Source of the DNA: a virus | Virus record (IMG/VR): IMGVR_UViG_3300032268_000189 | Coordinates: 1 to 24,667 of that record | Strand: one strand, 5' to 3' | DNA length: 24,667 nt | Part shown: positions 3,867 to 24,621 of the stretch, piece by piece | Position numbering within the stretch: position 1 is the first letter of the stretch | How the letters are laid out: each line of letters starts with the position of its first letter | Translations under genes and position numbers: made by a program | The notes under the pieces: generated by a model | Databases searched by the model: none | What the model was told of the DNA's origin: nothing | Seen by the model: only the letters and a program-made list of their open reading frames with translations

Positions 3867-4673
3867 ATGGCAAAAGCACAATATGCAATCGACGGAAAGC
3901 CCGGAAAAGCTTGGAAAGTTACGTCCACAATGGGCTGGCGCATCCACCCCGTCACAAAAACTAAAAAACACCACAACGGAACTGACATTTGGTCTTCGCA
4001 AGAGCCTTGCTGGATTGAGGCACCATACGATGGCAAGGTCATCGGTATTGGAAACAACCCAGCAGGTTTTGGAAACAGCGTTACGTTGTTCCACAATATT
4101 GACGGAAAGCCCTATGTCACGCTGTACGCACACATGGCAGACGGATCAATCAAGGTCAAAAAGGGTCAAAAAGTTGAAGCCGGAACCCCTCTTGGAAAGA
4201 TGGGCACCACTGGTATGTCAACTGGCAAGCACCTTCACTGGGAGCTTCAGAAGGGCAAAGCCTGGGTCTGGAACGCAACCGGAAAAAACTTTATTGAACC
4301 AGTTTCGTTCTTCAAGGCTCTTATTGCCAAAGAGGCTGCTATTGCAACCGCACCAATAGAAACTCCGCCCGACGCTCCTGTCGCGCCAGCTCCAACGCAC
4401 GACGACCAAGGTGCCGCTGAATTGGCAAAGACTGAGGCAGCAGCAGCAGTAGCAGCAGCAGCCGTTGTACCTACAGCCGTTCCCAAGGCTCGGCCCGCAG
4501 TCAAGGTTGGATCCAAGGGAATCCACGTCAAGTATCTCCAGAAGAAACTTGGAATCACCGCCGACGGAGTTTTCGGCCCTGACACTAAGAAGCACGTCAT
4601 GGCGTTTCAAGAGAAGAATGACCTCAAAGTTGACGGAACCGTTGGGCCCAACACCTGGGCAAAGCTAGGCTAA
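3867..4673 (+). CDS. M23 peptidoglycan endopeptidase with C-terminal peptidoglycan-binding domain (endolysin)
   Basis: 268 residues. The N-terminal half is a LytM-type M23 metallopeptidase with all expected residues: 'HHNGTD' gives the H36-x3-D40 zinc ligands, 'YAHM' gives H89, and 'KHLHWE' gives H122 and H124. Family members cut peptide cross-bridges of peptidoglycan. A Pro/Ala linker (about 165-215) leads to a PG_binding_1-type domain (about 212-268) with 'YLQKKLGITADGVFGPDT' and 'VDGTVGPNTWAKLG'. There is no signal peptide, so release would depend on a holin, such as the genes at 3642 or 1794. The start is ATG behind AAGGAAG. A paralogue follows at 4827. The alternating GCA/GCT codons for the Ala run at about 4437-4463 are a small repeat tract. 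Confidence 0.92.
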   Translation: MAKAQYAIDGKPGKAWKVTSTMGWRIHPVTKTKKHHNGTDIWSSQEPCWIEAPYDGKVIGIGNNPAGFGNSVTLFHNIDGKPYVTLYAHMADGSIKVKKGQKVEAGTPLGKMGTTGMSTGKHLHWELQKGKAWVWNATGKNFIEPVSFFKALIAKEAAIATAPIETPPDAPVAPAPTHDDQGAAELAKTEAAAAVAAAAVVPTAVPKARPAVKVGSKGIHVKYLQKKLGITADGVFGPDTKKHVMAFQEKNDLKVDGTVGPNTWAKLG

Positions 4674-4826: not shown

Positions 4827-5462
4827 ATGCCAGCATTTATTCGCCCAACAAGCACATCCAACATCTCGGATGACTTTGCCGATCACGCAGCGCGTGGCTC
4901 GGTCAACCCCGGCGTCGACTATGTAGTTGGGACAGGAACTCCCGTAGTTGCTGTTGCTGACGGAGTTGTCTCTGGAGTTACCACATCTATTGCAGGAGCA
5001 GGTGGACGTATGGTCTGGCTTGACTTTGCAAATGGATACAACTGCGACTATCTCCACCTCAGCCGCGTCGATGTCACCAAAGGTCAGGCAGTCAAGCAGG
5101 GTCAGGTTCTCGGACTCTCGGGTGGCTCAGGCCGCGGCTCTGAAAAGGGCTATGGCGCACACCTTCACTTCTCGTTCCGCGCAGGTGGCGGACACGTTCA
5201 GGGTCGCGGAAACATCGACTACGAAGCATTCCTCGCAAAGAGCGGTGGAGTTGCTCCCGCAGCACTAAACACCAGCGGTCGCGCAACGGTCAAGCAGGGT
5301 TCTAACGGACCTGACGTTGTTTACCTCCAGCAGAAACTCGGTATCGGCGCAGATGGTGCGTTCGGTCCCATCACCAAGAAGGCTGTCGTGGCATTCCAGA
5401 AGTCACGCAGTCTCGCTGCTGACGGAATCGTCGGACCTATGACATGGAAGGCTATTGGATAA
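4827..5462 (+). CDS. M23-like peptidase with C-terminal peptidoglycan-binding domain; first zinc ligand replaced by Asn
   Basis: 211 residues. Residues about 15-135 follow the M23/LytM fold: 'NPGVDY' at the HxxxD site, 'GTPVVAVADGVV', 'YLHLS' (H77), 'KGQAVKQGQVLGLSGGSG' and 'GAHLHFS' (H112, H114). The normal first zinc-ligand His is Asn (N27), while D31 and the other histidines are kept. The C-terminal domain (about 152-211, 'YLQQKLGIGADGAFGPIT', 'ADGIVGPMTWKAIG') is a PG_binding_1-type repeat closely resembling the one in the preceding lysin. No signal peptide. It may be an active enzyme with altered metal binding, or a non-catalytic wall-binding protein derived from a lysin. Start ATG with a weak GAAAG upstream, preceded by a possibly structured leader. 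Confidence 0.85.
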   Translation: MPAFIRPTSTSNISDDFADHAARGSVNPGVDYVVGTGTPVVAVADGVVSGVTTSIAGAGGRMVWLDFANGYNCDYLHLSRVDVTKGQAVKQGQVLGLSGGSGRGSEKGYGAHLHFSFRAGGGHVQGRGNIDYEAFLAKSGGVAPAALNTSGRATVKQGSNGPDVVYLQQKLGIGADGAFGPITKKAVVAFQKSRSLAADGIVGPMTWKAIG

Positions 5463-6216: not shown

Positions 6217-7412
6217 GCGACGAATTAAAAAAGACCTTGTCTGACTTGGTCTCTCCCGGACAGAATGGTTCGGACACCAAGCAGACCGCAACTCCTGAGT
6301 CGTGGCGTCCCCGCGTTGAGCTGGGACCCGATGGTGGGTTCATAATCTCCACCGCAAACGCCGAAGGTAACACCCCTGGTGCCGAAGAGATTCTCCGCGA
6401 GCGCGGGCTTGATCCTGCTGAGTGGCTAGTAACATCTGTTCGTAAAGGATCGTGGCAGACGTTCCACGGTGACTGGCTTGAATCCGTCCGCGTCAACGTC
6501 ACTCCCGCCCGAGGAGTCACAGAGCGTGACTTTGATCTCGAGGATCTTATTGACCACATCAGAACGTGGCGTCCAGAGAAGAGAATTAAGACTGCTACTG
6601 GCACCGGAGCCTACGCTCACGTTGGTGCTGATAAGCAGATAGGTAAAAAGTCTGGCTCTAATGGTACCGACCAGACTGTGGGCCGCATCCTTGAGGGGAC
6701 TCGACGAAGCCTAGAACGATTCCAAGGTCTACAGAGAATGGGTCTCTCTGTGGGAACCATTGTTCTTCCCGAACTTGGTGACCACGTTGAGGGCAATGTC
6801 TCTCAGAATGGACGTCTTCAAGGACTCGCCGCATCAGACTTAGGGCAGACTGAGCAGGTCCGCGTCGCTCGACGTCTATTGCTTCAGCAAATCAAGACTT
6901 TTGCTCCTCACGCTGAACGATTGATTATCCCTGTAGTCAACGGAAACCACGATGAGGTGACTCGTCAGGTAGCAGCAGACCCTGCTGATGGCTGGAACGT
7001 CGAGATTGCATCAGCAGTGCAAGACGCCTGCGCTGAGAACCCTGCCCTGCAACACGTTGAGTTCCGATTCCCCGCCTCTGGGCATCAAACACTTGTGACT
7101 GAAATCTGCGGAACTCACTTGGGAATGTTCCACGGACACCAGTTCTCACGCGACGTCGAGAAGTATCTCAACGGACAGGCCATGGGCCAGACAGCTCTGG
7201 GCGGTGCAGACCTCTGGATCAGCGGTCACTACCACCACTTCAAGTCGCAGGACGTTGGGTCCCGCCTCTGGGTACAGGCTCCTACAGTAGACCCCGGCTC
7301 GGACTGGTACCGAGACCGCACAGGAGCATCGTCTCGTCCCGGCTTCTTGACACTTGTCTTCGGTGGAGACTATGATCCCCGAGAGTTCATCAGTATTCTT
7401 GCAGTGGACTAA
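6213..7412 (+). CDS. Calcineurin-like metallophosphoesterase
   Basis: 399 residues from ATG 6213, which overlaps the previous stop by four bases (an in-frame upstream ATG at 6177 has no ribosome site). Residues about 135-345 carry the metallophosphoesterase motif series: D140-x-Q142 ('GADKQIGK', motif I with Gln in place of the usual His), 'GDHVEGN' with D190, 'GNHDE' (244-248), 'FHGHQ' (H307, H309) and 'GHYHH' (338-342). The first 125 residues form a separate N-terminal domain with no recognised family ('GGFIISTANAEGNTPGAEEI'). Members include SbcD/Mre11-like nucleases and other phosphodiesterases; no SbcC partner is visible here, so the substrate is unknown. It is the last plus-strand gene and its stop codon overlaps that of the opposing WhiB-like gene. 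Confidence 0.88.
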   Translation: MSDELKKTLSDLVSPGQNGSDTKQTATPESWRPRVELGPDGGFIISTANAEGNTPGAEEILRERGLDPAEWLVTSVRKGSWQTFHGDWLESVRVNVTPARGVTERDFDLEDLIDHIRTWRPEKRIKTATGTGAYAHVGADKQIGKKSGSNGTDQTVGRILEGTRRSLERFQGLQRMGLSVGTIVLPELGDHVEGNVSQNGRLQGLAASDLGQTEQVRVARRLLLQQIKTFAPHAERLIIPVVNGNHDEVTRQVAADPADGWNVEIASAVQDACAENPALQHVEFRFPASGHQTLVTEICGTHLGMFHGHQFSRDVEKYLNGQAMGQTALGGADLWISGHYHHFKSQDVGSRLWVQAPTVDPGSDWYRDRTGASSRPGFLTLVFGGDYDPREFISILAVD

Positions 7413-7421
7413 CTTAGTCCA
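7405..7421. repeat. Palindrome spanning two convergent stop codons
   Basis: TGGACTAA (7405-7412), a single C, and TTAGTCCA (7414-7421) form a 17-base perfect inverted repeat. It contains the TAA of the metallophosphoesterase gene (7410-7412) and the TAG of the WhiB-like gene on the other strand (CTA at 7409-7411). As RNA either strand could form a short hairpin, but no T-tract follows, so a terminator is unproven; a protein-binding site is also possible. Confidence 0.5.
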
Positions 7422-7879
7422 TACTGCGAACGGTAGCCATCCACTGAGTTTGCACTAGTTCTACTGATCCACGTAAACGCACAGCGTGAGCAAGTTACTG
7501 TCCGCCGTACTGTCCACCGTCCACCGCCAGGAATATCAATCTGTCCGGTGCGGAGAAACTCTGTATCAGCGTTGCAGTAAAGGCAGTACGGAGCTTCGCC
7601 CTTCTTAGTTCGACGTACTTCGCGCTCGTCCTCCGTGAGACAGAGAACATCGCGGATCTCGTCCTGAGACGCTCCACCCCAAACTCCCCAAATTTCACGG
7701 TTGTTGAGGGCCTTAGAGAGGCACTCCTTCCTCACGGGGCACGACATGCACATGGTTTTGGCTTGCTCGACCTCGTCCTCATTGTCTGAGAAGAAGAAGT
7801 TTATCTTAGACTTATTACTATCCTGAGCGCATACAGCGTCGTCAAGCCATTCTTGTTCGTCATCAGACATCAAGTCCAA
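7409..7879 (-). CDS. whiB: WhiB-family regulator with extra C-terminal zinc ribbon
   Basis: 156 residues. The N-terminal domain has the four WhiB cysteines, C17, then C44 and C47 (CMSC), then C53 (C-x2-C-x5-C), which bind a [4Fe-4S] cluster, followed by 'GVWGG' (65-69) and a basic stretch 'REVRRTKKG'. WhiB proteins act with the primary sigma factor in Actinobacteria, and phage WhiBs can block host WhiB functions. Unusually, a second pair of CxxC motifs follows: C99/C102 ('YCLYC') and C130/C133 ('TCSRC'), the spacing of a zinc ribbon. The TTG start at 7879 has AGGA seven bases upstream; ATG at 7870 is an alternative that drops three residues. Either start overlaps the 3' end of the upstream unknown gene (stop 7863-7865), so translation is likely coupled. 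Confidence 0.92.
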   Translation of the reverse strand: MDLMSDDEQEWLDDAVCAQDSNKSKINFFFSDNEDEVEQAKTMCMSCPVRKECLSKALNNREIWGVWGGASQDEIRDVLCLTEDEREVRRTKKGEAPYCLYCNADTEFLRTGQIDIPGGGRWTVRRTVTCSRCAFTWISRTSANSVDGYRSQYGLS

Positions 7880-8192: not shown

Positions 8193-8621
8193 CTAGACCA
8201 CACGCTTCTCAAGCTTGCTCGGCGGGAGGTGGACGCCATCGAGCAAAGGCTTACGGTCGTCGTCCGATCGGAACACAATGTCTCCGTAGCGAATTCCGAC
8301 AATCTTTCCGCGTCTTCCGTTGAGGCGTACTCCTTGATCTCCTGTAAACGCATCTGACTTGACGCGGATAAGGTCGGCAACCTTGAGGTCCCCCGGACGA
8401 GCGTCTACCCAAATCTCGTCTTTATACGGCTCTAGGACCGAGTGGCTCTGCGCGAGGTGCTTGAACAGGGTCAAGCCCTCTTCAATTTGTGCCGGGGTCA
8501 GCGCATCTGTGGCAATATCGTCCCATGCCTTTAACAGCGCGACAGTTAATTTACCCACAGGGATACGAACTTTGGCTCCTGCCATTTGTTCGTCTACCCA
8601 AGAAAAGTCTACTTTAGACAT
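8193..8621 (-). CDS. Unknown protein with C-terminal KOW/SH3-like motif
   Basis: 142 residues from ATG 8621 behind a good AGGAGA site. Residues about 20-70 look helical ('VALLKAWDDIATDALTPAQI'). Residues about 80-125 ('RPGDLKVADLIRVKSDAF', then 'NGRRGKIVGIRYGDIVFRSD') resemble a small beta-barrel of the KOW/SH3 type, with the typical Gly-x-x-Gly-Lys-Ile-Val-Gly-Ile pattern found in RNA- or protein-binding modules. It leads the operon that ends with the WhiB-like gene and is preceded by a promoter-like motif and by the terminator of the replication block. A role in transcription or translation is a guess; no exact family was recognised. Confidence 0.8.
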   Translation of the reverse strand: MSKVDFSWVDEQMAGAKVRIPVGKLTVALLKAWDDIATDALTPAQIEEGLTLFKHLAQSHSVLEPYKDEIWVDARPGDLKVADLIRVKSDAFTGDQGVRLNGRRGKIVGIRYGDIVFRSDDDRKPLLDGVHLPPSKLEKRVV

Positions 8622-8643
8622 TGTTCTCCTAAGTTAAAGTGTA

Positions 8644-8654
8644 CTTCTATTCTA
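8644..8654 (-). promoter_or_regulatory. Promoter-like motif for the WhiB operon
   Basis: TAGAATAGAAG (8654-8644 on the minus strand) has TAGAAT as a possible -10. It begins directly after the terminator of the upstream block and lies 22 bases before the ATG at 8621, leaving room for the AGGAGA ribosome site. The sequence is shared with 1698-1708 and 15985-15975. No good -35 is seen. Confidence 0.5.
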
Positions 8655-8690
8655 CAACAAAATAGACCCAAACTCAGCGTTTGGGCCTAT
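8652..8690 (-). terminator. Intrinsic terminator after the SSB-like gene
   Basis: Arms 8662-8673 and 8679-8690 pair as a 12-bp stem around TCAGC. In minus-strand RNA the pair at 8666/8686 is G-U, so the stem is complete; in plus-strand RNA it is an A-C mismatch. The minus-strand product continues into a T-rich run (TTTGTTG). It lies 16 bases past the end of the SSB-like gene. The tract is only moderately T-rich. Confidence 0.7.
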
Positions 8691-8705
8691 CTTGTTGCTC
8701 ACCGA

Positions 8706-9314
8706 TTAGAAAGGAGCGGAGGGGAGTGCACCAGGAATGGGAGGTGCACCAACCGGAGCAGCAACGGCTGGGGCGGGGGGAGCCACAGGAGCGCTGACAA
8801 CGGGAGCAAGAGCCGGAGCAGGAGCGGCCACGGGGGGCGCAAAAGCAACGGCGGGGGCGGGCGCAGATACAGGAGCTGCGACAGTAGTCGCAACACCGGG
8901 CTGTGTCGAGATCGGGTAGAACATCTGGATATCGTTGTTGATCTTACCCTGGTAGTCAGATTGAGTAACCTGACCACGGAATGAACGACCAATCATGGCA
9001 CGAGCAATCGTGTCAACGTCGGGGTTCTGAGCGAAGAACTCTTGAGTGAGTCCGAGTGCGCCCATCTTGCGGAAGAACATACCAAGAGCGGTAGGGTTCT
9101 CCGTGACGAGTACAAGGTTGTTCCACACACGACGACGCGCGTGAGGACCGTCAATCACCTCAGTGGTGATCTTCCACATATCGCGGCCACTCTGGGCTTT
9201 CTTATATGAGGCTTCCTTGATGTTGAGGTTGTAGTCTCCTACGGGAAGGGGCTCAAAGGATGTACCGCTATCAGCGGCTTCCTTAATTATTTCTCCCCAG
9301 TTGATCTGTGTCAC
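8706..9314 (-). CDS. Single-stranded DNA-binding-like protein (DUF669-type)
   Basis: 202 residues from GTG 9314 with AAGGAGA four bases upstream. Residues about 1-140 look like the DUF669-type phage proteins usually found beside Sak4-like ATPases: 'LPVGDYNLNIKEASYKKAQS', 'WKITTEVIDGP', 'RRRVWNNLVL', 'GRSFRGQVTQSDYQGKINND'. They are thought to bind ssDNA during recombination or replication. Residues about 145-195 are an Ala/Pro/Val linker. The chain ends '...GALPSAPF': the terminal Pro-Phe recalls bacterial SSB and T7 gp2.5 tails that recruit partners, but the usual acidic residues are missing. It is the last gene of the minus-strand replication block and is followed by a terminator. Position and pattern support the call; the fold is not proven. 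Confidence 0.7.
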   Translation of the reverse strand: MTQINWGEIIKEAADSGTSFEPLPVGDYNLNIKEASYKKAQSGRDMWKITTEVIDGPHARRRVWNNLVLVTENPTALGMFFRKMGALGLTQEFFAQNPDVDTIARAMIGRSFRGQVTQSDYQGKINNDIQMFYPISTQPGVATTVAAPVSAPAPAVAFAPPVAAPAPALAPVVSAPVAPPAPAVAAPVGAPPIPGALPSAPF

Positions 9315-9340
9315 TTTATCTCCTTAGTAATCGGGTTTTG

Positions 9341-10096
9341 TTACTGGTCCGCACTCGGCTGAGTACGGGGTCCGAAAATCAAGTCTAGCATACGCTCGAC
9401 GCCAAGGTCACCCTGTTCAACAATTGAACCGAGTCGGCCTTGTACGCGCTCGCCTGCTTCGAACTTTTCCGTGCGCTCAACGTACAGACGGCGAACCTTG
9501 TACGGTGGTTGCATGGGATCGGGATTCGGGAATGTCTCGTTGGACAGGTACCCAAGGATGTCGTAGAAATACGGTGCCTGAGTTTTGAGCTGTCCTTGGA
9601 GGTAAGGGTGCATGACACCTTCACGCTCCTGAGCCATTGCCGTGAGAACGACAGCCTCGAGAGGTGCCGTCGGGTGCGAGGTGAGGTCACGAACGTCGCG
9701 GAGGAATGCTCCCATACGACGCAGGATTTCGCCCCACTGTTGCATCTTGACCGCATCCTGTCCTGCAATGTCGGTCATGTACTTGTCCTGCAACTCCGAG
9801 ATGGAGTCGATGATCAGAGACTTGAACTGGTGCTTACCAGCCTGGAGCCACTGATAGGCCTTGAGGACAACGTGGAGATCGCGAACGATCACAACGCAGG
9901 TGTCCCAAGTTCCGTCAGCCACCGGGGGTTCTTCCCGCATGGGGTCCCAGTACTTGACGTTGATGGGAAGGAAGCGGTGGCCGCCCTCCACATCGAGCAT
10001 GAGACGAGGATAAGGTGCTGTGACGGCAAAAGTGGACTTACCCACCTTTGACGCGCCATAAATCATCATCGTCAGAGAGCGCTGAATATCAGACAC
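9341..10096 (-). CDS. Sak4-like RecA-fold ATPase
   Basis: 251 residues from GTG 10096, sharing one base with the upstream stop (TAGTG). Walker A is 'GASKVGKST' (14-22), Walker B is 'SLIIDS' (93-98), and 'VVLTAMAQ' near 149-156 fits a sensor strand. Length and layout match phage Sak4-like/AAA_24 ATPases: short RecA-core proteins that promote single-strand annealing or strand exchange and cooperate with an SSB, here the neighbouring gene. The body also contains 'DVEGGHRFLP' just after the Walker region, common in this group. No helicase motif is seen. Translation is coupled to the Cas4/RecB-like nuclease gene upstream, indicating a shared recombination job. It could alternatively load the replicative helicase. 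Confidence 0.85.
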   Translation of the reverse strand: MSDIQRSLTMMIYGASKVGKSTFAVTAPYPRLMLDVEGGHRFLPINVKYWDPMREEPPVADGTWDTCVVIVRDLHVVLKAYQWLQAGKHQFKSLIIDSISELQDKYMTDIAGQDAVKMQQWGEILRRMGAFLRDVRDLTSHPTAPLEAVVLTAMAQEREGVMHPYLQGQLKTQAPYFYDILGYLSNETFPNPDPMQPPYKVRRLYVERTEKFEAGERVQGRLGSIVEQGDLGVERMLDLIFGPRTQPSADQ

Positions 10097-11031
10097 TATT
10101 CACTACCTTTCGGGTCGTCTTTTCCGTAGTATGCATACGGGTCTGCAGCTTCGTAGCCCATTTCCAAAGCTGATTCTGCGGCACTTCCATCATCGATGAG
10201 AGGGCAGATAGCAAAGAATTCGCACTTCCACTTGCAGTCCCGGTTCGGACGAGGATAGGCCACTGCAAAGTGACTTTCGCCGTTGTCCAAAGCATCTTTA
10301 GTTCTTATCAAATCTGATACTACACCATGAAGTCGCTGCCAGAAGGCTCGCAACGTGTATACATTGTGTCGTACTTCAAATTGATCATAGAACGGGGGCT
10401 TTGCGGCAGCAGTGCGCTTTACCTTCTTGAGGAGGGTAAAGAGACCACCCTCGCTTCGCTCATCCGTTCCCTCGTTCTGAGCATTCTCCAAGAGCATGTA
10501 GGTGAGGATTTGCTCATTCATGTGAGCAGTCTCACCGAACTGAGTGAACGACCCGCCCACCGTCTTGAAGTCGCGGAACATACGAACACCATCCGCCTTA
10601 CGGCGAACTCGCATATCCAGCTTTCCCTGAAGTTGAACGCTACCGTCAAACATTGGCATGGTCAAGATTTCTTCAGTCGAGATAAACTCCAAATCGGAGT
10701 CAATCCCCTCCTCCTCAACCCAGTCGAGGTATCCTTCGAGCATGATTCGACCGAGGTCGGCTTCTGTCTCAAAGTCGCTTGTGAACTCTGTCTGGGCCTC
10801 AACGAGCTTACGCTCCTCGTGAACAAGGCCAGCGTAGATGTCGAGAAGCGGAGAGTCAGTCGAGTAGTACTGATCCAGTGCCTCGTGGACACGAGATCCA
10901 AGAGCCAAGGGGCCGCTGTACTTCTTCTGCTTTGGCTTCAGACGTCGGTAATAGGCCAGCCACCATTTACGGCGACAGTCCTTATACGTCTGAATCTCCG
11001 AGTTGGAGAGCGTGTAGGTTCCTTCTGTCAT
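10096..11031 (-). CDS. RecB/Cas4-like PD-(D/E)XK nuclease
   Basis: 311 residues from ATG 11031 behind AAGGGA. The N-terminal 'YTLSNSEIQTYKDCRRKWWL' gives the conserved C19 and Arg-rich start of the Cas4/RecB family. H50 in 'SRVHEALD' is the family's motif I His. 'GKLDMRVRR' (D139) and 'MFRDFKTVG' (D154, K156) form the PD-(D/E)XK catalytic core, and 'QILTYMLL' (174-181) matches the Q-x3-Y motif. C266, C270 and C276 near the C-terminus, with C19, fit a [4Fe-4S]-binding set as in Cas4/AddB. Such enzymes resect DNA ends. It sits upstream of the Sak4-like ATPase, one base apart, suggesting an end-processing and annealing pair. No CRISPR array was seen. Confidence 0.9.
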   Translation of the reverse strand: MTEGTYTLSNSEIQTYKDCRRKWWLAYYRRLKPKQKKYSGPLALGSRVHEALDQYYSTDSPLLDIYAGLVHEERKLVEAQTEFTSDFETEADLGRIMLEGYLDWVEEEGIDSDLEFISTEEILTMPMFDGSVQLQGKLDMRVRRKADGVRMFRDFKTVGGSFTQFGETAHMNEQILTYMLLENAQNEGTDERSEGGLFTLLKKVKRTAAAKPPFYDQFEVRHNVYTLRAFWQRLHGVVSDLIRTKDALDNGESHFAVAYPRPNRDCKWKCEFFAICPLIDDGSAAESALEMGYEAADPYAYYGKDDPKGSE

Positions 11032-11043
11032 TTTGTAATTCCC

Positions 11044-11172
11044 TTATTTAGGAGGTGCCGGAACAAGTCGACGCTTTTCAGCATCGAACTGCTTGGGGTG
11101 TTTCTTAAATCCTTTACCATTCTGACGGTCGTTGTTACGAACGCCAGAAGACTTTCCTCTTTTTTTAGCCAC
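11044..11172 (-). CDS. Small basic protein
   Basis: 42 residues from GTG 11172. This start is chosen because AGGAGGGG, which overlaps the end of the helicase gene, lies seven bases upstream; the longer frame to 11232 lies inside the helicase coding region and has no such site. About a third of residues are Lys or Arg ('MAKKRGKSSGVRNNDRQNGK', 'FKKHPKQFDAEKRR'), and there are no Cys and no hydrophobic core. Small basic proteins of this kind can bind nucleic acid or be unstructured adaptors. Between the helicase and the nuclease, it is likely co-expressed with both. No family recognised. Confidence 0.62.
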   Translation of the reverse strand: MAKKRGKSSGVRNNDRQNGKGFKKHPKQFDAEKRRLVPAPPK

Positions 11173-11176
11173 GGCT

Positions 11177-12964
11177 TTACCCCTCCTTGAGCATCTTAAG
11201 AAGTTGCTCTTTGTCTTTGACGATCTGTTCAAAATTGTCGGATTTTGATTCTAGCACGTCAACCACGCGTTCCTGCACAGTTCCGCCAGTGACATAGTCG
11301 GTAATGATGATTGAGTCGTGAATCTCAGAACCGATACGGTGAACGCGGTCATTGACCTGTCGATCATCGACGAGAGACCACGGACGTTGCAGACGAATGA
11401 GTCGACGAGCTGCCGTCAGGGTCACTCCAACGCCCCCTGCTTGGGCCGTAAAGAGTATCCACTTAGTGCGCCCAGACTGGAAGTCGTCGATAGCGTACTG
11501 TCGCTCATCGCCACTCTGAGCCCCTGTGATAAGCCCATGAGCAATGCCTTCCTTGGTGAGACGAGCACTGAGTAAGTAAATTAACTGCCGAGATACAGCA
11601 GAGACAGCAACCGAATCTGCACCAAAGTCACCGTTCTTGATATCGTCCATCAAGGCATCAATCGTGCACGACGGCTCTGAGAGGATCACGCGCTCTTCGC
11701 CCGAGTTCTCATCAATCTCGATGGTAGCGTATGCACTCGAGAGCTGGAGGAGACGAAGAGTCTGAGTCAGGACCGAGGGAGCAGTAACAATGCCACCATC
11801 CTCAATCTCGGCAATCATCTGCTCTTTCATATCCTTGTACGCTTTTTTCTGCTTGGGTGACATCTCGACATCGCGACGGTCAACAATGACCTCGGGGAGC
11901 CACGGAAGCACAACCTGCTTGAGCATGCGGCGCATACGCGGATTGATTGAGGCATAGAACTCATCCTCCATCTGTGGCTTTACACCGAGAACCATCATCC
12001 CGCCGAAAGCATTGAACATGGTATCTACCATGCGGTCAATCCATCGAGTACGGCTCGGGAATTCAGTTGGGGCAAGCCAGTGATAGATTGGCCATAGGTC
12101 AACAACATCTTTGGCAATCGGAGTTCCGGTAAGTGCGAATCTAATATCTGCGTTACCCGACGCCGACCACAGGGCGCGAGTCTGCTTTGACTTGGGGTCT
12201 TTGGATCGGTGGATTTCATCCGCGACCACAGCCTTGAAGTCAATAGAGTCGAGCTCGCGTGGGTGAACCTCACAACGGCTTTCGGTCATAGAGCCGTTCT
12301 CTCCGCCACACGCTTTACAGCGAGCTAGCGAGACCGAGCCATAGGGAGCCAGGCGCGAGTGTGTGCGGAGACTTTCCCAGTTAATGACATAGACCTGAGC
12401 AGGCTCTTCGAACTGCTTGCGACGCTGTACAGCCGTACCGCCAATGATGGTCACGTCTACACCTGGCCACCACCTGTCAAACTCGCGTTCCCAGTTTTTC
12501 TTGAGGGTATTGGGGCAGACAATCAGAGCAGGAAAAACATCCTCCCCCCGATCGTGAAGTTTCTTGATAGCTCGAATCGCCTGTGCAGTCTTACCAAGCC
12601 CCGGCTCGTCGGCCAGCAAAGCCTGACGTGCGGTAGTCAAAAACTCAACACCAGCCCGCTGGTGAGGAAACAGGTCGGCATCGCCCTCATCTGAGGTAGT
12701 GAGTTCGCGCAGTGCGTTGGCGGGGTCAATACGATTAGTTCGCTCATCCGTTGCCCATTGAGCCAGTCCCGGACCGATTGCAAGAGCATCTCGGAACGTA
12801 GAGCGCAGGGCAAGGCAGCCAGACCACGAGACGGGCATACGCCACACATCGCTCTTAGAGTCCCATGTCGCACCAGGAATCGTCTTACACAGCTCCTTGA
12901 AACGCCACTCGGCGCTAATAAGGATTTGTGTGCGCTCCTCGTTCAGTTCGACATTAATCGTCAT
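11177..12964 (-). CDS. SNF2/SF2-family DNA helicase or translocase
   Basis: 595 residues. Walker A 'DEPGLGKT' (119-126), motif II 'DEIH' (249-252), motif III 'LTGTP' (278-282), motif V 'AGGVGVTLT' (509-517) and motif VI 'VHRIGS' (541-546) are all present, and the arrangement with 'LFPHQRAGVEFL' (98-109) is that of SNF2-type ATPases such as SMARCAL1/HepA-like annealing helicases. The first 65 residues ('SAEWRFKELCKTIPGATWDS') resemble the small N-terminal HARP-like segment that binds DNA. An insert before motif II holds C216-x2-C219...C231-x2-H234, a likely zinc knuckle. The start ATG overlaps the resolvase stop (ATGA). In phage replication blocks this gene may remodel forks or help strand annealing. 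Confidence 0.9.
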   Translation of the reverse strand: MTINVELNEERTQILISAEWRFKELCKTIPGATWDSKSDVWRMPVSWSGCLALRSTFRDALAIGPGLAQWATDERTNRIDPANALRELTTSDEGDADLFPHQRAGVEFLTTARQALLADEPGLGKTAQAIRAIKKLHDRGEDVFPALIVCPNTLKKNWEREFDRWWPGVDVTIIGGTAVQRRKQFEEPAQVYVINWESLRTHSRLAPYGSVSLARCKACGGENGSMTESRCEVHPRELDSIDFKAVVADEIHRSKDPKSKQTRALWSASGNADIRFALTGTPIAKDVVDLWPIYHWLAPTEFPSRTRWIDRMVDTMFNAFGGMMVLGVKPQMEDEFYASINPRMRRMLKQVVLPWLPEVIVDRRDVEMSPKQKKAYKDMKEQMIAEIEDGGIVTAPSVLTQTLRLLQLSSAYATIEIDENSGEERVILSEPSCTIDALMDDIKNGDFGADSVAVSAVSRQLIYLLSARLTKEGIAHGLITGAQSGDERQYAIDDFQSGRTKWILFTAQAGGVGVTLTAARRLIRLQRPWSLVDDRQVNDRVHRIGSEIHDSIIITDYVTGGTVQERVVDVLESKSDNFEQIVKDKEQLLKMLKEG

Positions 12965-13437
12965 TCGTTATTTCCTTTTCTGAGTAGTGGTAAAAAATTC
13001 CACTTCTCCTGTTGTACCACATAAAGTAGCGCATGTCGAATTGCATCGAGGGCGTGCCCAGCACCTCCTCGGTACCAGTAGCCCATGGTCTTGATTTTGG
13101 CATTAGGGAACATGCTCATTGCATTGGCGGGAAGTTGATACTTCAGCTCCTCGGGGTCGCGGCCATAGTACATCATGACCGCCTTGAGAACACCGATACA
13201 CTCGAGGCTGTATGGAGCCTGAGACTTTTTAGCCGTCTGCACATTAATTGTGAATTTTTCGCAGACAATCTCAAGATCGTCTCCGTACGTCACGAACAGC
13301 TGATGAAGCTTTTGGTAGTAGTCAAACATCTCCAGCTCGTCGGCCCAGATTAGCTGCGGGTCGCCTCCCTTTTCAAAGGCAGCGAGCGCCATGCCCGTTG
13401 TCTTTCCGGGGTCTACTGCCAGCACAAACTTAGGCAT
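12961..13437 (-). CDS. RuvC-like Holliday junction resolvase/RNase H-fold nuclease
   Basis: 158 residues from ATG 13437 ('MPKFVLAVDPGKTTG'), which overlaps the polymerase stop by eight bases; a TTG eight codons upstream is less likely. The RuvC-like acidic set is visible: D9 ('AVDPGKTTG'), E60 ('IVCEKF') and D131 ('GAGHALDAIRHALLYV'). The last motif is typical of phage RuvC-like resolvases. Such enzymes cut branched recombination or replication intermediates, and here the gene lies between the polymerase and the helicase, with overlaps on both sides. The fold family is quite clear. The exact substrate is inferred. Confidence 0.88.
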   Translation of the reverse strand: MPKFVLAVDPGKTTGMALAAFEKGGDPQLIWADELEMFDYYQKLHQLFVTYGDDLEIVCEKFTINVQTAKKSQAPYSLECIGVLKAVMMYYGRDPEELKYQLPANAMSMFPNAKIKTMGYWYRGGAGHALDAIRHALLYVVQQEKWNFLPLLRKGNNE

Positions 13438-15271
13438 CGTATTTCTGGCCCCAGTTCTCAAACGGTCCGTCTACTCCAGCAGTGAGCGGAATATCCCAGC
13501 CTTCGGTGGTGGTCATGCAGGACTGCACGACACGCATGATTTCCTCGGCGTTGTCCCGAGGTGCTTGAAGCACGATTTCGTCGTGTACAGGAACAATAAG
13601 AAGTTCGGTGAGGTCAGCCTGATCAAGTCGAATCAGGCTCTGCTTGAACACTTCCGCTGCCGTTCCCTGAATGAGGTAGTTGGTCAGCGAGTAGACGCGG
13701 TCGTCGTCGCAGGGGAGTCGGCGTCCAGTTCGAGTCATAACGTAGCCCCTACCCTCTTCACGGAAACGACGCATCCCAGATTCTTCAATTCGCTTCTGGA
13801 ACATCTTGACACCGGGGTAGTTTCCGTCGAAAGCCTCGACGACCTCACGCATGATTTCAGTTGTAACACCTGCGGTCAGAGCCATCTTGTCGACACCAGC
13901 ACCATAGAGCTTTCCGTAGATAACACCCTTGATGAGTTTACGACGAGGGTCTGATTTGGTCAGCGTGTTATCTTGATAGACCTGCTGCATGATCGAGGTA
14001 AACACGTCTCCACCAGTAGCATCGGCATCGTGGAACAACTTGATAAGGGTTGCATCTTCGCTGTAGTTGGCAGTGATACGGAACTCGACTTGATCAAGGT
14101 CGGACGAGATAATGACGTGGTCCTCATCCTTCGGAATAAACGCACGACGAACTGTGGCATCCCCAGAGGGAAGGGTCTGGAGCGCGGGTTCAGTAATCGA
14201 CATACGACCAGTACGGGCACGCAGCAAGTTGATGGACGGGTGTACGAATCCATCGACATTGTCGTTGATAAAGTTGAGGAAGTACGAGCTAGCTAGCTTG
14301 TCGGCCTTGCGTTGCTTGAGTACGGCATCAGCCAACTGCTTGACATCTGCATTACCGTCACGGACCAGCATGGAGAGTTGATCCTTGCTAACCGACTTAT
14401 TGCCCGACGGAGTGGTCTCCGTGATGTTAGCACCGAGCCCCTCAAAGGCATGGACAAGTTGCATGTTGCTTGTGATTAATACACCGCCATGAGCATTTTT
14501 AGCCCACTCCTTGACGGAGTCGGAGTAGCCCAGGAGTTCGTCGTACTTGCTCTTGGAGTACTCAAGATTTATTCGAGCGCCGTTGATTTCCATGCGCGTA
14601 ACAATCTTGCGAGCGGCCATCTCGAGTTCGTAGGCAATACTATATGGCTTCCCCGGACCGCAAAGTTCATAGAACTGCTCAAACAGACGCATCGTCAGTA
14701 CGGTGTCAAGTGCTCCATACGCCCAGTACGGCTCAAACGTGACAGGGACAGTGCCCCACGTCCATCCGTTATCCATAAATTGACGATCAAGAGTGTCCTG
14801 CAAAGCAACTGAGCGACCATCTACATATCGAGCAGCAAGGCGCTTGAGTGCTGCTGTCCCAAGAGGGTCAATGATTTGAGCCATAATCATGGTGTCATGA
14901 GCTTGGTGCCACGGCAGATCCCAGCGCGACTTGACGGCAAACCATCGAGCCTCAAACGCAATGTTGTGGCAGACGATAGGGCCCTCGTAGTTCTCCATCC
15001 CCTGATAGAAAACTCCAGACCACTCCTCCCAAGGGATTGCCCAGCCTTGCTGTGCGTCGCCCACCTGAACAAGGCGAATGTTTCCGTGCCATGGGGAGAA
15101 TGTATCGGTGCGACGACCGCCTGGCTTCTCGCCCGTTTCAATATCAATGGCAATAGCGTTCATCGGTCGGCGCTCGCCAAGCCACGAGAGAAACTGTTCT
15201 GCCTTTTCGACAGTGTCTACCAAGTGAAGCTTGACGTTAGAGAGGCCGCTCTCCGCTGGGGTCGTCGTCAT
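13430..15271 (-). CDS. polA: Family A DNA polymerase with 3'-5' exonuclease
   Basis: 613 residues; no 5'-3' nuclease domain, as usual for phage enzymes. Exonuclease motifs: 'DIET' (D43, E45), 'CHNIAFEARW' (N103) and 'YGALDTVLT' (Y185, D189). Polymerase: 'RARTGRMS' (351-358), motif A 'DLDQVEFR' (D391-R398), motif B 'RRKLIKGVIYGKLYG' (443-457) and motif C 'HDE' (563-565). The position matching E. coli Phe762 is Tyr452, and motif A carries Leu where E. coli Pol I has Tyr706. ATG 15271 is backed by AGGAGA eight bases upstream, although this start lies 35 bases inside the preceding gene. It is the core replicase of the block and would extend primers made by the primase-polymerase at 1-1595. Confidence 0.96.
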   Translation of the reverse strand: MTTTPAESGLSNVKLHLVDTVEKAEQFLSWLGERRPMNAIAIDIETGEKPGGRRTDTFSPWHGNIRLVQVGDAQQGWAIPWEEWSGVFYQGMENYEGPIVCHNIAFEARWFAVKSRWDLPWHQAHDTMIMAQIIDPLGTAALKRLAARYVDGRSVALQDTLDRQFMDNGWTWGTVPVTFEPYWAYGALDTVLTMRLFEQFYELCGPGKPYSIAYELEMAARKIVTRMEINGARINLEYSKSKYDELLGYSDSVKEWAKNAHGGVLITSNMQLVHAFEGLGANITETTPSGNKSVSKDQLSMLVRDGNADVKQLADAVLKQRKADKLASSYFLNFINDNVDGFVHPSINLLRARTGRMSITEPALQTLPSGDATVRRAFIPKDEDHVIISSDLDQVEFRITANYSEDATLIKLFHDADATGGDVFTSIMQQVYQDNTLTKSDPRRKLIKGVIYGKLYGAGVDKMALTAGVTTEIMREVVEAFDGNYPGVKMFQKRIEESGMRRFREEGRGYVMTRTGRRLPCDDDRVYSLTNYLIQGTAAEVFKQSLIRLDQADLTELLIVPVHDEIVLQAPRDNAEEIMRVVQSCMTTTEGWDIPLTAGVDGPFENWGQKYDA

Positions 15272-19113: not shown

Positions 19114-19114
<1 letters not shown>
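18116..19114 (-). CDS. Glycine-rich tail fibre/adhesin protein, paralogue 1
   Basis: 332 residues from ATG 19114, which overlaps the upstream stop by one base (TAATG); an in-frame ATG at 19165 would lie inside that gene. The tag is 'ILKRYNSGTSAWEPVIVGATG' (residues 3-23), closest to that of the collagen fibre gene upstream ('[20 protein letters not shown]'). Then 'LTLQQTIINPATTTVSLVGA' and 'IIYAVVVGGGGGGG', about 250 residues of Gly-rich repeats, and 'GGVGAILLYW' at the end. It is the first of three tandem paralogues. As with its relatives, a role at the fibre tip in host binding is inferred. Confidence 0.8.
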
Positions 19115-21489
<2,375 letters not shown>

Positions 21490-21648: not shown

Positions 21649-24621
21649 CTATAATTCCGAGTCAAATTCTATGTACGCTGCTGCGTCATTATTTGCACCA
21701 AGTACCGCTGCCGCACCGTCAGTAGCACTACTAGTTGTGACTTGTAGGCTCACAGGATTGGTTGAAGACTGGTAAATGACGATGGCGCTGACTGTTTCTG
21801 CATCGATGGTCAGTGTGCGGAAAGCACCCGAATAACTCACTGCCGGGGTAGTCCTCAATTCTACTGGCAGATGGATTGGCATATAGCAGGCAGTTGTTGA
21901 GTTGTAAACGCCAGAAGCAAATAACGAATACGCTTGCTTGGCTACAATCCTTTGGTAGTACCGCTGACACGCAGCCAACTCCGCTTGAAAAGAGGGCGCA
22001 TTTCGACGGAAAGGTGTAGCAACTGAACCCTTTTCAATTTGAACACCCCAGATATCAATTGTTTGTGTTGAGTTGACGGTGGAAGATTGAAAAGTAAGGA
22101 TAATAGAGTCATTGCCGTCCGTACCAATAGTTTTACCTGATAGTGAAGGCAATGTTACCGTCGCGGTGTAGTTAGCCCACGAGGTGGTCAAGGTCTTTGC
22201 GCTGCCGTTTGTAGTTGTACTTGCAGATGGACTGCCACCTGTTCCAAAGTATTGAGTAAAAATAGGAGTTACTGTTCTTGTTGCGTTTGCGTCTCTCTTT
22301 GCCCAAAATGAGACAGTAATGGTCTCACCTGCAAGGGTGCGAACACTTTCGATGCGCTGTTCAAGTATGTTTGAGAAAGTAGCACCAGTACCACCAGTTG
22401 TTTGGTTGTATCTGTAAAAGAATCTACCTTCATATCCAGAGACAGGTGCGGTTCCTAAAGTAAAAGCCTGTTGTGAGATTGTTCGAACACCAGTACCATC
22501 AAACGCCGCTCGCCAACGGTCCGCCGAATACGTATTGCTTACAGCGCTGGCAAAAGATGCGCCCCGCTGCCAAATATCAAAACCGCCATTAATGATGAAG
22601 TTGTACGAGGGCGAAGTCGCGTTGACAAAGTTTGTGCCGTTGTGAAGAAGTGTCTGCCCAGTGGCCGCGGATGTGATAGCCACATCAGAGAGATCATCAC
22701 TCGATAAAAGTGAGTTTTCCCACGTTGTTCCCGAGTAGCGAACTGTTTGCCCTGTAGCAGGAGACGAGACGACGACATCATTGAGATCATTGAATGCCAT
22801 CTGAGTGCCATTGACTGTGGTGTCTCCCCACAACACATCGGTACTGACGGGTGCAGTGGCAGAGTAGACAATTCCTGCGAGACCAGTGTTTCCCGTGAGT
22901 CCTGTAAGGCCAGTTGCACCTGTGTTACCGATAGCACCAGTTGCACCTGTTGGTCCGACAGCTCCGGTGTTGCCGACAGCACCCGTGTTCCCCACCGCGC
23001 CAGTTGCACCTGTGTTACCGATAGCACCCGTTGCACCAATCGCACCCGTAGGTCCAACCTGTGTGTACATGACCTGAGTAGCAGTCAGAACTACAGAAGC
23101 AGTAGATGGCTTGGTTGGAGAACCGTTGTCCGCAACTGAGTAGTACTGGATACTGACATCGGTAGACGATGTGCTCCAGTAAAACTCGTAGTAGTCGTTT
23201 GCCGATGTAGTTGTGAAGACAAAGTTCCATCCATAGATAGCGTGGAATGGGTCGCCGGGGTTTTTTCTTGCAGGTAGTCCAACTTTGCCAGTAGAACCAA
23301 CAACATCAGTTCCGTTTTTCTTGAGCCAAATAAATGAGTCTTGAGGGGCGTTATTTGCGTTTTCTAGTTGAACAGAGAACTGAATATCGTAAGTGCCGAT
23401 ATTGGCAAAGGTAATTCTTGTTAGTTTACCGCTACCGTTATTGGCAACTGACACGCCGTTTGACTCATCGGTCTGCCCAAGAACAAGGGCGGCTGCTTGG
23501 TTTGCTACCGCGCTACCTACAGTTGTAGCACCGCCAGCAAACTGGTCTGAGTAGTCTGAGAAAGCACCGTAGTATCCGAGTGCGCCACCAGTTCCAGTCG
23601 GTCCAGTCGCACCTGTATTGCCGACTGCGCCAGTTGGGCCGGAGACAGTGGAGTTAGCACCCGTGGGTCCGGTAGCACCTGTTGCCCCAGTCACACCAGT
23701 ATTACCAGCAACTCCAGTAGCCCCTACTGATCCTGTTGGACCCGTAATTCCGGTTGCACCAATCGCGCCCGTAGGGCCTGTTACTCCCGTATTACCCTGT
23801 GGGCCAACGGATCCTCGCAACTCGAGTGCCGTCATAACCGGACCAGTGTTTTCACCAAAGCTAATGGTTCCAGCAGAGATGGTATTTACCTTTAAGTGGT
23901 AAGTGTATGTTCCTGCTACTGCTAAAGTATCGATGTAATTTAGGGCAAATGGATTATTTTCAGAGACGGCAGATTTTTCTGTTTGAACATTTGGGCCCAG
24001 TGGAGTTGTCCCACGATACAGCTGCATTCGAAGCCAAGCACCAGCATTTGTGTTTGCTGTGTCCCCGGAGGCAATAATTTGAACGGGGCTGTTAACGGCA
24101 GTGGTTGTAATGGTGACGCTAATAATTGTAAAAGGCAACGTAGAACTTGTACTGACGCTTACGGGCGAGACGGTGTAGGTCTGCACAAAATTCATTGCGC
24201 TGGGGGTTAGTACCCCACCCGAACCAGGCTCTTGTGGATAGACCAACACTTCATTAGTGTCTGGATCAAACGCTAGGCTGTATAGCCCAGTAGCACTTGC
24301 TAGTGAATCGTAGGGGGACTCATATTTGACACCATTGAGTACGACATGGCCATCATCGCCGACATTTATGGACAGATTTCCACCCGATGAAAGCGACGTA
24401 ATTTGCGACAAGTGCTCGGTGCTGATAGATCCCAGCTGGATCTTGTTACTAGTTACAGCCCGATCTTGGACATTGTCGGTAGCAACACCTTGATTGGCAA
24501 TTTGAGTGGATCCAACAGAGTTTTCTTGGATCGTCTTCTTCTCGGTGGAGATAACCCTCGACTCGAGGTCGTTGAGCTTGTTTCCGACATTGCGGTTACG
24601 TCGTACGCGTCTAGTCGCCAA
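21649..24621 (-). CDS. Large collagen-like tail fibre protein with C1q-like and carbohydrate-binding-like domains
   Basis: 990 residues from TTG 24621, eleven bases inside the upstream gene, with GGAGG nine bases upstream. Basic N-terminus and helical segment (to about 60, '[20 protein letters not shown]'), which could dock to the tail. A beta domain (about 140-270) leads to collagen triplets (272-345), then a C1q/TNF-like head (about 350-520, '[20 protein letters not shown]'), a second collagen stretch (about 525-590), and after a linker the domain from '[16 protein letters not shown]' (about 670 on), seen in many phage fibres and thought to bind sugars. It ends '[11 protein letters not shown]'. 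Likely the main receptor-binding fibre. Domains other than collagen are assigned by pattern. Confidence 0.87.

Follow-up and report, generated by a model that had tools for sequence, protein, structure and literature searches.

The whiB-ribbon locus

The window, by which we mean the whole stretch of virus DNA that was analysed (24,667 nucleotides, a virus record without a near DNA-level match in the phage collection), encodes on its minus strand a protein in which a WhiB-like (Wbl) domain is followed by a linker, a predicted zinc-ribbon module and a predicted C-terminal helix (Table 1). An open reading frame of 156 codons from a TTG lies at exactly 7409–7879, as an earlier, sequence-only reading of this DNA had reported. 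The TTG at 7879 adds three residues to the product of the conserved ATG at 7870; residues are numbered here from that ATG, which lowers the numbers of the earlier reading by three. The cysteines that it had listed as Cys17/44/47/53 and Cys99/102/130/133 are all in place, at 14/41/44/50 and 96/99/127/130 in the present numbering.

Table 1. Features of the whiB-ribbon locus in the window
Feature	Position	Strand	Basis or remark
WhiB-ribbon protein CDS	7409..7870	-	153 aa + stop; ATG 7870 common to close relatives (loci L007-L009)
WhiB (Wbl) domain, residues 1-80	7631..7870	-	Pfam PF02467, Foldseek, alignment columns
Linker, residues 81-93, conserved E-x-R-R	7592..7630	-	alignment
Zinc-ribbon module, residues 94-136: C96/C99, GGRW loop, C127/C130	7463..7591	-	invariance, predicted structure
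C-terminal helix, residues 137-149	7424..7462	-	predicted structure; R137, S139, N141 in 110/110
Acidic partner ORF, ~109 aa	7863..8192	-	8-bp overlap with whiB (7863-7870)
Replication/recombination operon upstream of whiB module	8193..15271	-	domain searches and shared gene order

In the window, the whiB-ribbon gene is the last gene of a minus-strand replication operon and faces a plus-strand phosphoesterase gene; in named relatives, too, it closes the replication operon. The upstream genes encode a 142-residue ORF, a DUF669/SSB-like protein, a Sak4-like protein, a PD-(D/E)XK exonuclease, a SNF2 helicase, a phrog_1981 protein that is RuvC-like by synteny, and DNA polymerase I. Pumpernickel, Zooman and A3Wally, all phages of Microbacterium, have these genes in the same order; in Racecar, an Arthrobacter phage, the whiB-ribbon gene also lies near a helicase and a primase, but in a different arrangement. 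Elsewhere in the window, two large collagen-repeat tail fibre proteins (19114–21489 and 21649–24621, both minus strand) adjoin the operon, and two plus-strand genes (3867–4673 and 4827–5462) each encode an endolysin-like combination of M23 peptidase and PG_binding_1, apparently as paralogues.

A relative of the acidic protein is encoded directly upstream of whiB in 90 of 95 homologous loci, and the two genes overlap in 62 of the 78 loci tested. These proteins, of about 110 residues, have a median net charge of -15; the AlphaFold2 model of the acidic protein is confident, with a pLDDT of 86.9, and neither a family match nor a fold match in the PDB was obtained. The protein may be a partner of WhiB-ribbon. 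That it might be a DNA mimic or a WhiB antagonist is a guess.

The WhiB half

Genes for WhiB proteins serve as markers of actinophages (PMC9878933), and few regulators are more common in actinophages than WhiB (PMC8612146). When the phage collection and viral contigs were searched, the loci retrieved, together with the window, supplied 157 proteins, of which 110 distinct ones were aligned; they come mostly from IMG/VR, and also from Microbacterium, Arthrobacter and lake actinophages. The assignment of the N-terminal half to the WhiB family was borne out by a match to PF02467 (E=1.1e-17; 64.8 bits, where 23.6 would suffice). The cluster cysteines C14, C41, C44 and C50, in the Wbl spacing C..CxxCxxxxxC, are present in 110/110 homologues, and the Wbl G[I/V]W[G/A]G turn appears as GVWGG at residues 62–66 of the window protein. 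The C-terminal AT-hook RGRP of the WhiB7 subclass is absent from the window protein sequence.

Foldseek against the PDB matched the WhiB half only, to structures of WhiB, WhiB1, WhiB3 and WhiB7 in complex with sigma-A4 or RNA polymerase. WhiB7 and WhiB3 (PDB 7kif, 7kug, 8cwt, 8cyf) share with the phage protein the WhiB domain, the four cluster cysteines, a G[VI]WGG turn and the aromatics that meet sigma-A region 4, and the E/Q-I-W that precedes the turn in ribbon WhiBs resembles the EPW motif of WhiB7. In the aligned columns the sigma-A4 contacts correspond to W8, F26, F27 and W64 of the window protein. F26, F27 and W64, the equivalents of F17, F18 and W60 of WhiB1, are kept in 106, 108 and 105 of the 110 sequences, respectively; their WhiB3 counterparts, F31, F32 and W76, cannot be dispensed with for binding to sigma-A4 (PMC10245118). 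The tryptophan of the turn, W64, is replaced by arginine in the other five sequences, which are of a Microbacterium-phage type and in which sigma docking may differ.

Conservation and predicted fold of the tail

The second cysteine set has the pattern CxxC-x27-CxxC and is separate from the WhiB domain. This set, noted in the earlier reading, is a genuine feature: all eight cysteines are invariant and the extra ones are retained in 110/110 homologues, which rules out a chance pattern, although, as the search queries included the tail, this figure measures conservation inside the clade and not the frequency of the tail among all phage WhiBs. A ninth cysteine of the window protein, C77, is not conserved among the 110. 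Around the cysteines, L106, P114, G116, G117, R118, W119, F132, W134, S136, R137, S139 and N141 are each found in at least 107 of the 110 sequences, so that GGRW is nearly invariant and the motif W-x-SRxSxN is likewise kept. Summed over nine homologue pairs, synonymous differences in the tail amount to 0.59 per site and nonsynonymous ones to 0.08 (pN/pS ~0.13), and within the window's own close group there are at most 3 nonsynonymous differences against up to 22 synonymous ones. Purifying selection on the tail is strong.

Linker and ribbon together are basic (median +6), and the C-terminal extension has a median net charge of +6, being at least +4 in 86/110. Most relatives have a Lys-rich end. 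Since the window protein is without one (the 12 residues after N141 have a net charge of 0) and the end is strongly acidic in one subclade (-13), a basic tail cannot be essential.

The AlphaFold2 model, built with 54 sequences, has a pLDDT of 91.6 and a pTM of 0.83, with pLDDT values of about 96–97 across most of the tail. The predicted tail consists of two cysteine knuckles, an antiparallel hairpin (residues 106–112 and 121–127), a short strand (133–135) and a helix (137–149). Judged on the predicted strands and the invariant CxxC pairs, it has the two knuckles and the antiparallel β-hairpin that define a zinc-ribbon fold. From the strand positions, the hairpin would pair residue 106 with residue 127 and bring C127/C130 near C96/C99. 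We infer that the tail binds metal, presumably zinc. Conservation, selection and the confident predicted fold thus back the architecture of a WhiB protein with an added ribbon.

The tail could not be placed in a curated zinc-ribbon family: many zinc-ribbon models of Pfam and NCBIfam match it weakly, all below threshold. Pfam, NCBIfam and PHROGs contain nothing that passes its cut-off for the tail, which also has no PHROG when taken in isolation, and on these searches it was rejected as a member of a known family. Foldseek against the PDB matched the ribbon to no solved structure convincingly, the non-WhiB matches being weak; in the viral library the best match is a protein of 142 residues, aligned almost from end to end.

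Carriers and other phage WhiB C-termini

The search for other WhiBs with the same tail that the earlier reading had called for was productive, the 110 distinct homologues being its outcome. Carriers named by the homologue search, in part of which the tail itself was inspected, are the Microbacterium phages Pumpernickel, Zooman, Big4, A3Wally and Cece, the Actinomycetia phage DSL-LC01, and the Arthrobacter phages Racecar, Talia1610, Mimi and Atuin. Several carriers hold one or two more WhiB genes, and those inspected are without the ribbon. A tail shared with host WhiBs found no support: among the matches listed in 396 actinobacterial genomes none has the ribbon in frame, and a scan of genome contigs with two degenerate patterns found no host WhiB with the same tail. 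The literature search found no description of a WhiB with a zinc ribbon or zinc finger; the conserved combination is real and, within a regulator family already familiar from phages, apparently a variant not described before.

For comparison, a second scan that started from WhiBs not belonging to the ribbon clade yielded 69 distinct C-termini, in a sample skewed to relatives of the query. In agreement with the statement that most WhiB proteins end soon after their basic region, 57/69 have no C-terminal cysteine pair, and most of these C-termini are 12–30 residues long. The remaining 12/69, a figure that is no more than indicative given the skew, bear cysteine pairs: nine have at least two, mostly in a treble-clef-like arrangement (CxxCGxxF..CSxxCR), and three have one. 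A zinc tail is therefore not unique to this clade among phage WhiBs, and such tails seem to recur in at least three forms, of which the GGRW ribbon is one. Mycobacteriophages MooMoo and Yorick and the loci L178, L184, L197, L213, L236 and L194 likewise have extra cysteine pairs after the WhiB domain; unlike the ribbon, their tails are treble-clef-like or of a CxxxH..CxxC type, occur in one to three copies, lack GGRW and W-x-SRxSxN, and belong to WhiBs with separate positions in the tree. WhiBs with one to three treble-clef-like C-terminal modules were also noted at L159 (1474–1872) and L160 (756–1247), besides those at L178, L197, L213 and L236.

A possible split version in Streptomyces phages

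Only the WhiB domain was used for the phylogeny (69 columns, 124 rows); the tree is short and did not converge. The ribbon proteins form a single clade in 978/1000 bootstraps. Nearest to it are the WhiBs of Streptomyces Woodruffvirus and the short WhiB of DSL-LC01 (886/1000 with both); an exclusive clade of ribbon and Woodruffvirus proteins appears in 484/1000 and, with an AU p=0.20, is neither rejected nor shown.

The Woodruffvirus WhiBs have no tail, and a small ribbon gene directly follows whiB in all six Woodruffvirus-type genomes inspected (Abt2graduatex2, Xkcd426, phiSAJS1, Mischief19, Geonosis and YDN12). These stand-alone genes, among them Abt2graduatex2 gp38, Mischief19 gp46 and phiSAJS1 gp45, belong to family phrog_15307. 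Like the tail, their products have the pattern CxxC...CxxCG[FY]xW, with GGRW in some members only; they differ from it in being separately encoded, in a longer loop, and in having E-A after the tryptophan instead of SRxSxN. Aligned with hhalign, the Woodruffvirus ribbons match the tail with 89% probability and a score of 33.3, whereas 100 column shuffles with fixed cysteines reached 22.9 at most; phrog_15307 itself gave no match to the tail. A fusion or fission of neighbouring whiB and ribbon genes is the likely explanation of these findings. It is not proven, because the tree is short and unconverged, the shuffle null holds no unrelated zinc ribbon, and TurkishDelight gp83 (L170, 2141–3205) has a Woodruffvirus-type ribbon inside a protein of 354 residues with no WhiB annotated nearby. 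A comparison of the genes upstream of the Woodruffvirus whiB with the acidic partner gave no support for a relationship.

Proposed role

The related phages presumably use the host RNA polymerase, since neither a recognisable sigma region 2 nor an RNA polymerase beta subunit was found in the 12 related phage records searched. A sigma-region-4-like HTH protein of about 200 residues occurs in several carriers (loci L331–L335), and in Microbacterium phages it is listed twice, near both ends of the record; as no sigma region 2 was found, it was rejected as a phage sigma factor. The suggestion that a phage WhiB with an added ribbon could redirect host sigma-factor complexes, or block them, is compatible with the evidence, and such a role is plausible because the aromatics equivalent to those that dock WhiB1 and WhiB3 on sigma-A4 are conserved and the related phages searched show no recognisable sigma region 2 or RNA polymerase beta of their own.

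To account for what is observed, namely the domains and their conservation, the selection on the tail, the predicted fold, the single ribbon clade and the place in the genome, we favour a phage Wbl regulator, docked on sigma-A, in which the ribbon and helix replace the basic or AT-hook end and pick out the promoters of the phage, with activation in the middle or late stage as the probable effect; we regard this proposal as about evenly poised between right and wrong. The WhiB half would most likely hold a [4Fe-4S] cluster and, within RNA polymerase, dock on the host's primary sigma factor at its region 4. Where WhiB7 uses an AT-hook on DNA and WhiB3 an Arg-rich motif, the phage protein has the predicted zinc-ribbon module and helix. 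Through its GGRW loop, the basic linker and, in most relatives, the Lys-rich end, the ribbon would touch the DNA of the promoter on the upstream side of the -35 element, or else the polymerase surface next to it, and this contact would select phage promoters, the protein being made, probably at a middle or late stage, from the final gene of the replication operon. As to the sign of the effect, activation of phage promoters, to which we give about an even chance, would be likelier than its main rival, antagonism of host Wbl proteins, which we consider doubtful.

What counts against an activator is WhiBTM4: no other phage WhiB has been followed during infection, according to PMC8612146, and this one reportedly represses the whiB2 of the host and is no phage activator (PMC8612146; PMC6282962). 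WhiBTM4 reduces whiB2 expression and yields a whiB2-mutant phenotype (PMC6282962; PMC8612146), and a similar antagonist would compete with host proteins of the WhiB2/WhiB class for sigma-A or promoter DNA, with host division shut down or superinfection blocked as the outcome; the conserved sigma-contact residues would suit it, and the ribbon would add affinity only. We think this a minority prospect, as a distinct, strongly conserved module and a constant operon-end position suit an accessory host-attack gene less well than a phage regulator that acts on schedule, and the ribbon-less WhiB copies in some of the same phages could fill the antagonist's role. Zinc ribbons in general frequently contact RNA polymerase. 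Together with the conserved docking aromatics, this speaks for a general transcription blocker that would cover the beta flap tip as well as sigma-A region 4 and stop -35 recognition, its ribbon lying on the polymerase and not on DNA; in the Wbl–sigma-A4 complexes of PMC10245118, however, the regulator is bound to DNA, which it contacts by an AT-hook or an Arg-rich motif, and we judge such a blocker improbable. That genes for DNA polymerase, helicase, exonuclease and Sak4 are its constant neighbours could instead point to a replication-linked protein, the WhiB fold serving as a scaffold and the ribbon binding single-stranded DNA or a replication protein of the same operon. Conservation of the sigma-A4 docking residues would then be unneeded, and the gene arrangement around whiB differs in Racecar; this we consider very improbable indeed.

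Under the preferred reading of a sigma-docked promoter selector, a conserved ribbon that stands in for the usual DNA-binding end in at least 100 large and freshwater actinophages offers a handle on how host RNA polymerase is steered. A more speculative extension, which we hold to be rather unlikely, is that exchangeable metal-binding heads, fused to or encoded beside a sigma-A-docking WhiB half, set promoter choice, and that here the co-translated acidic protein, as a DNA mimic, would restrain WhiB-ribbon. The split version in Streptomyces phages provides a natural two-part test system.
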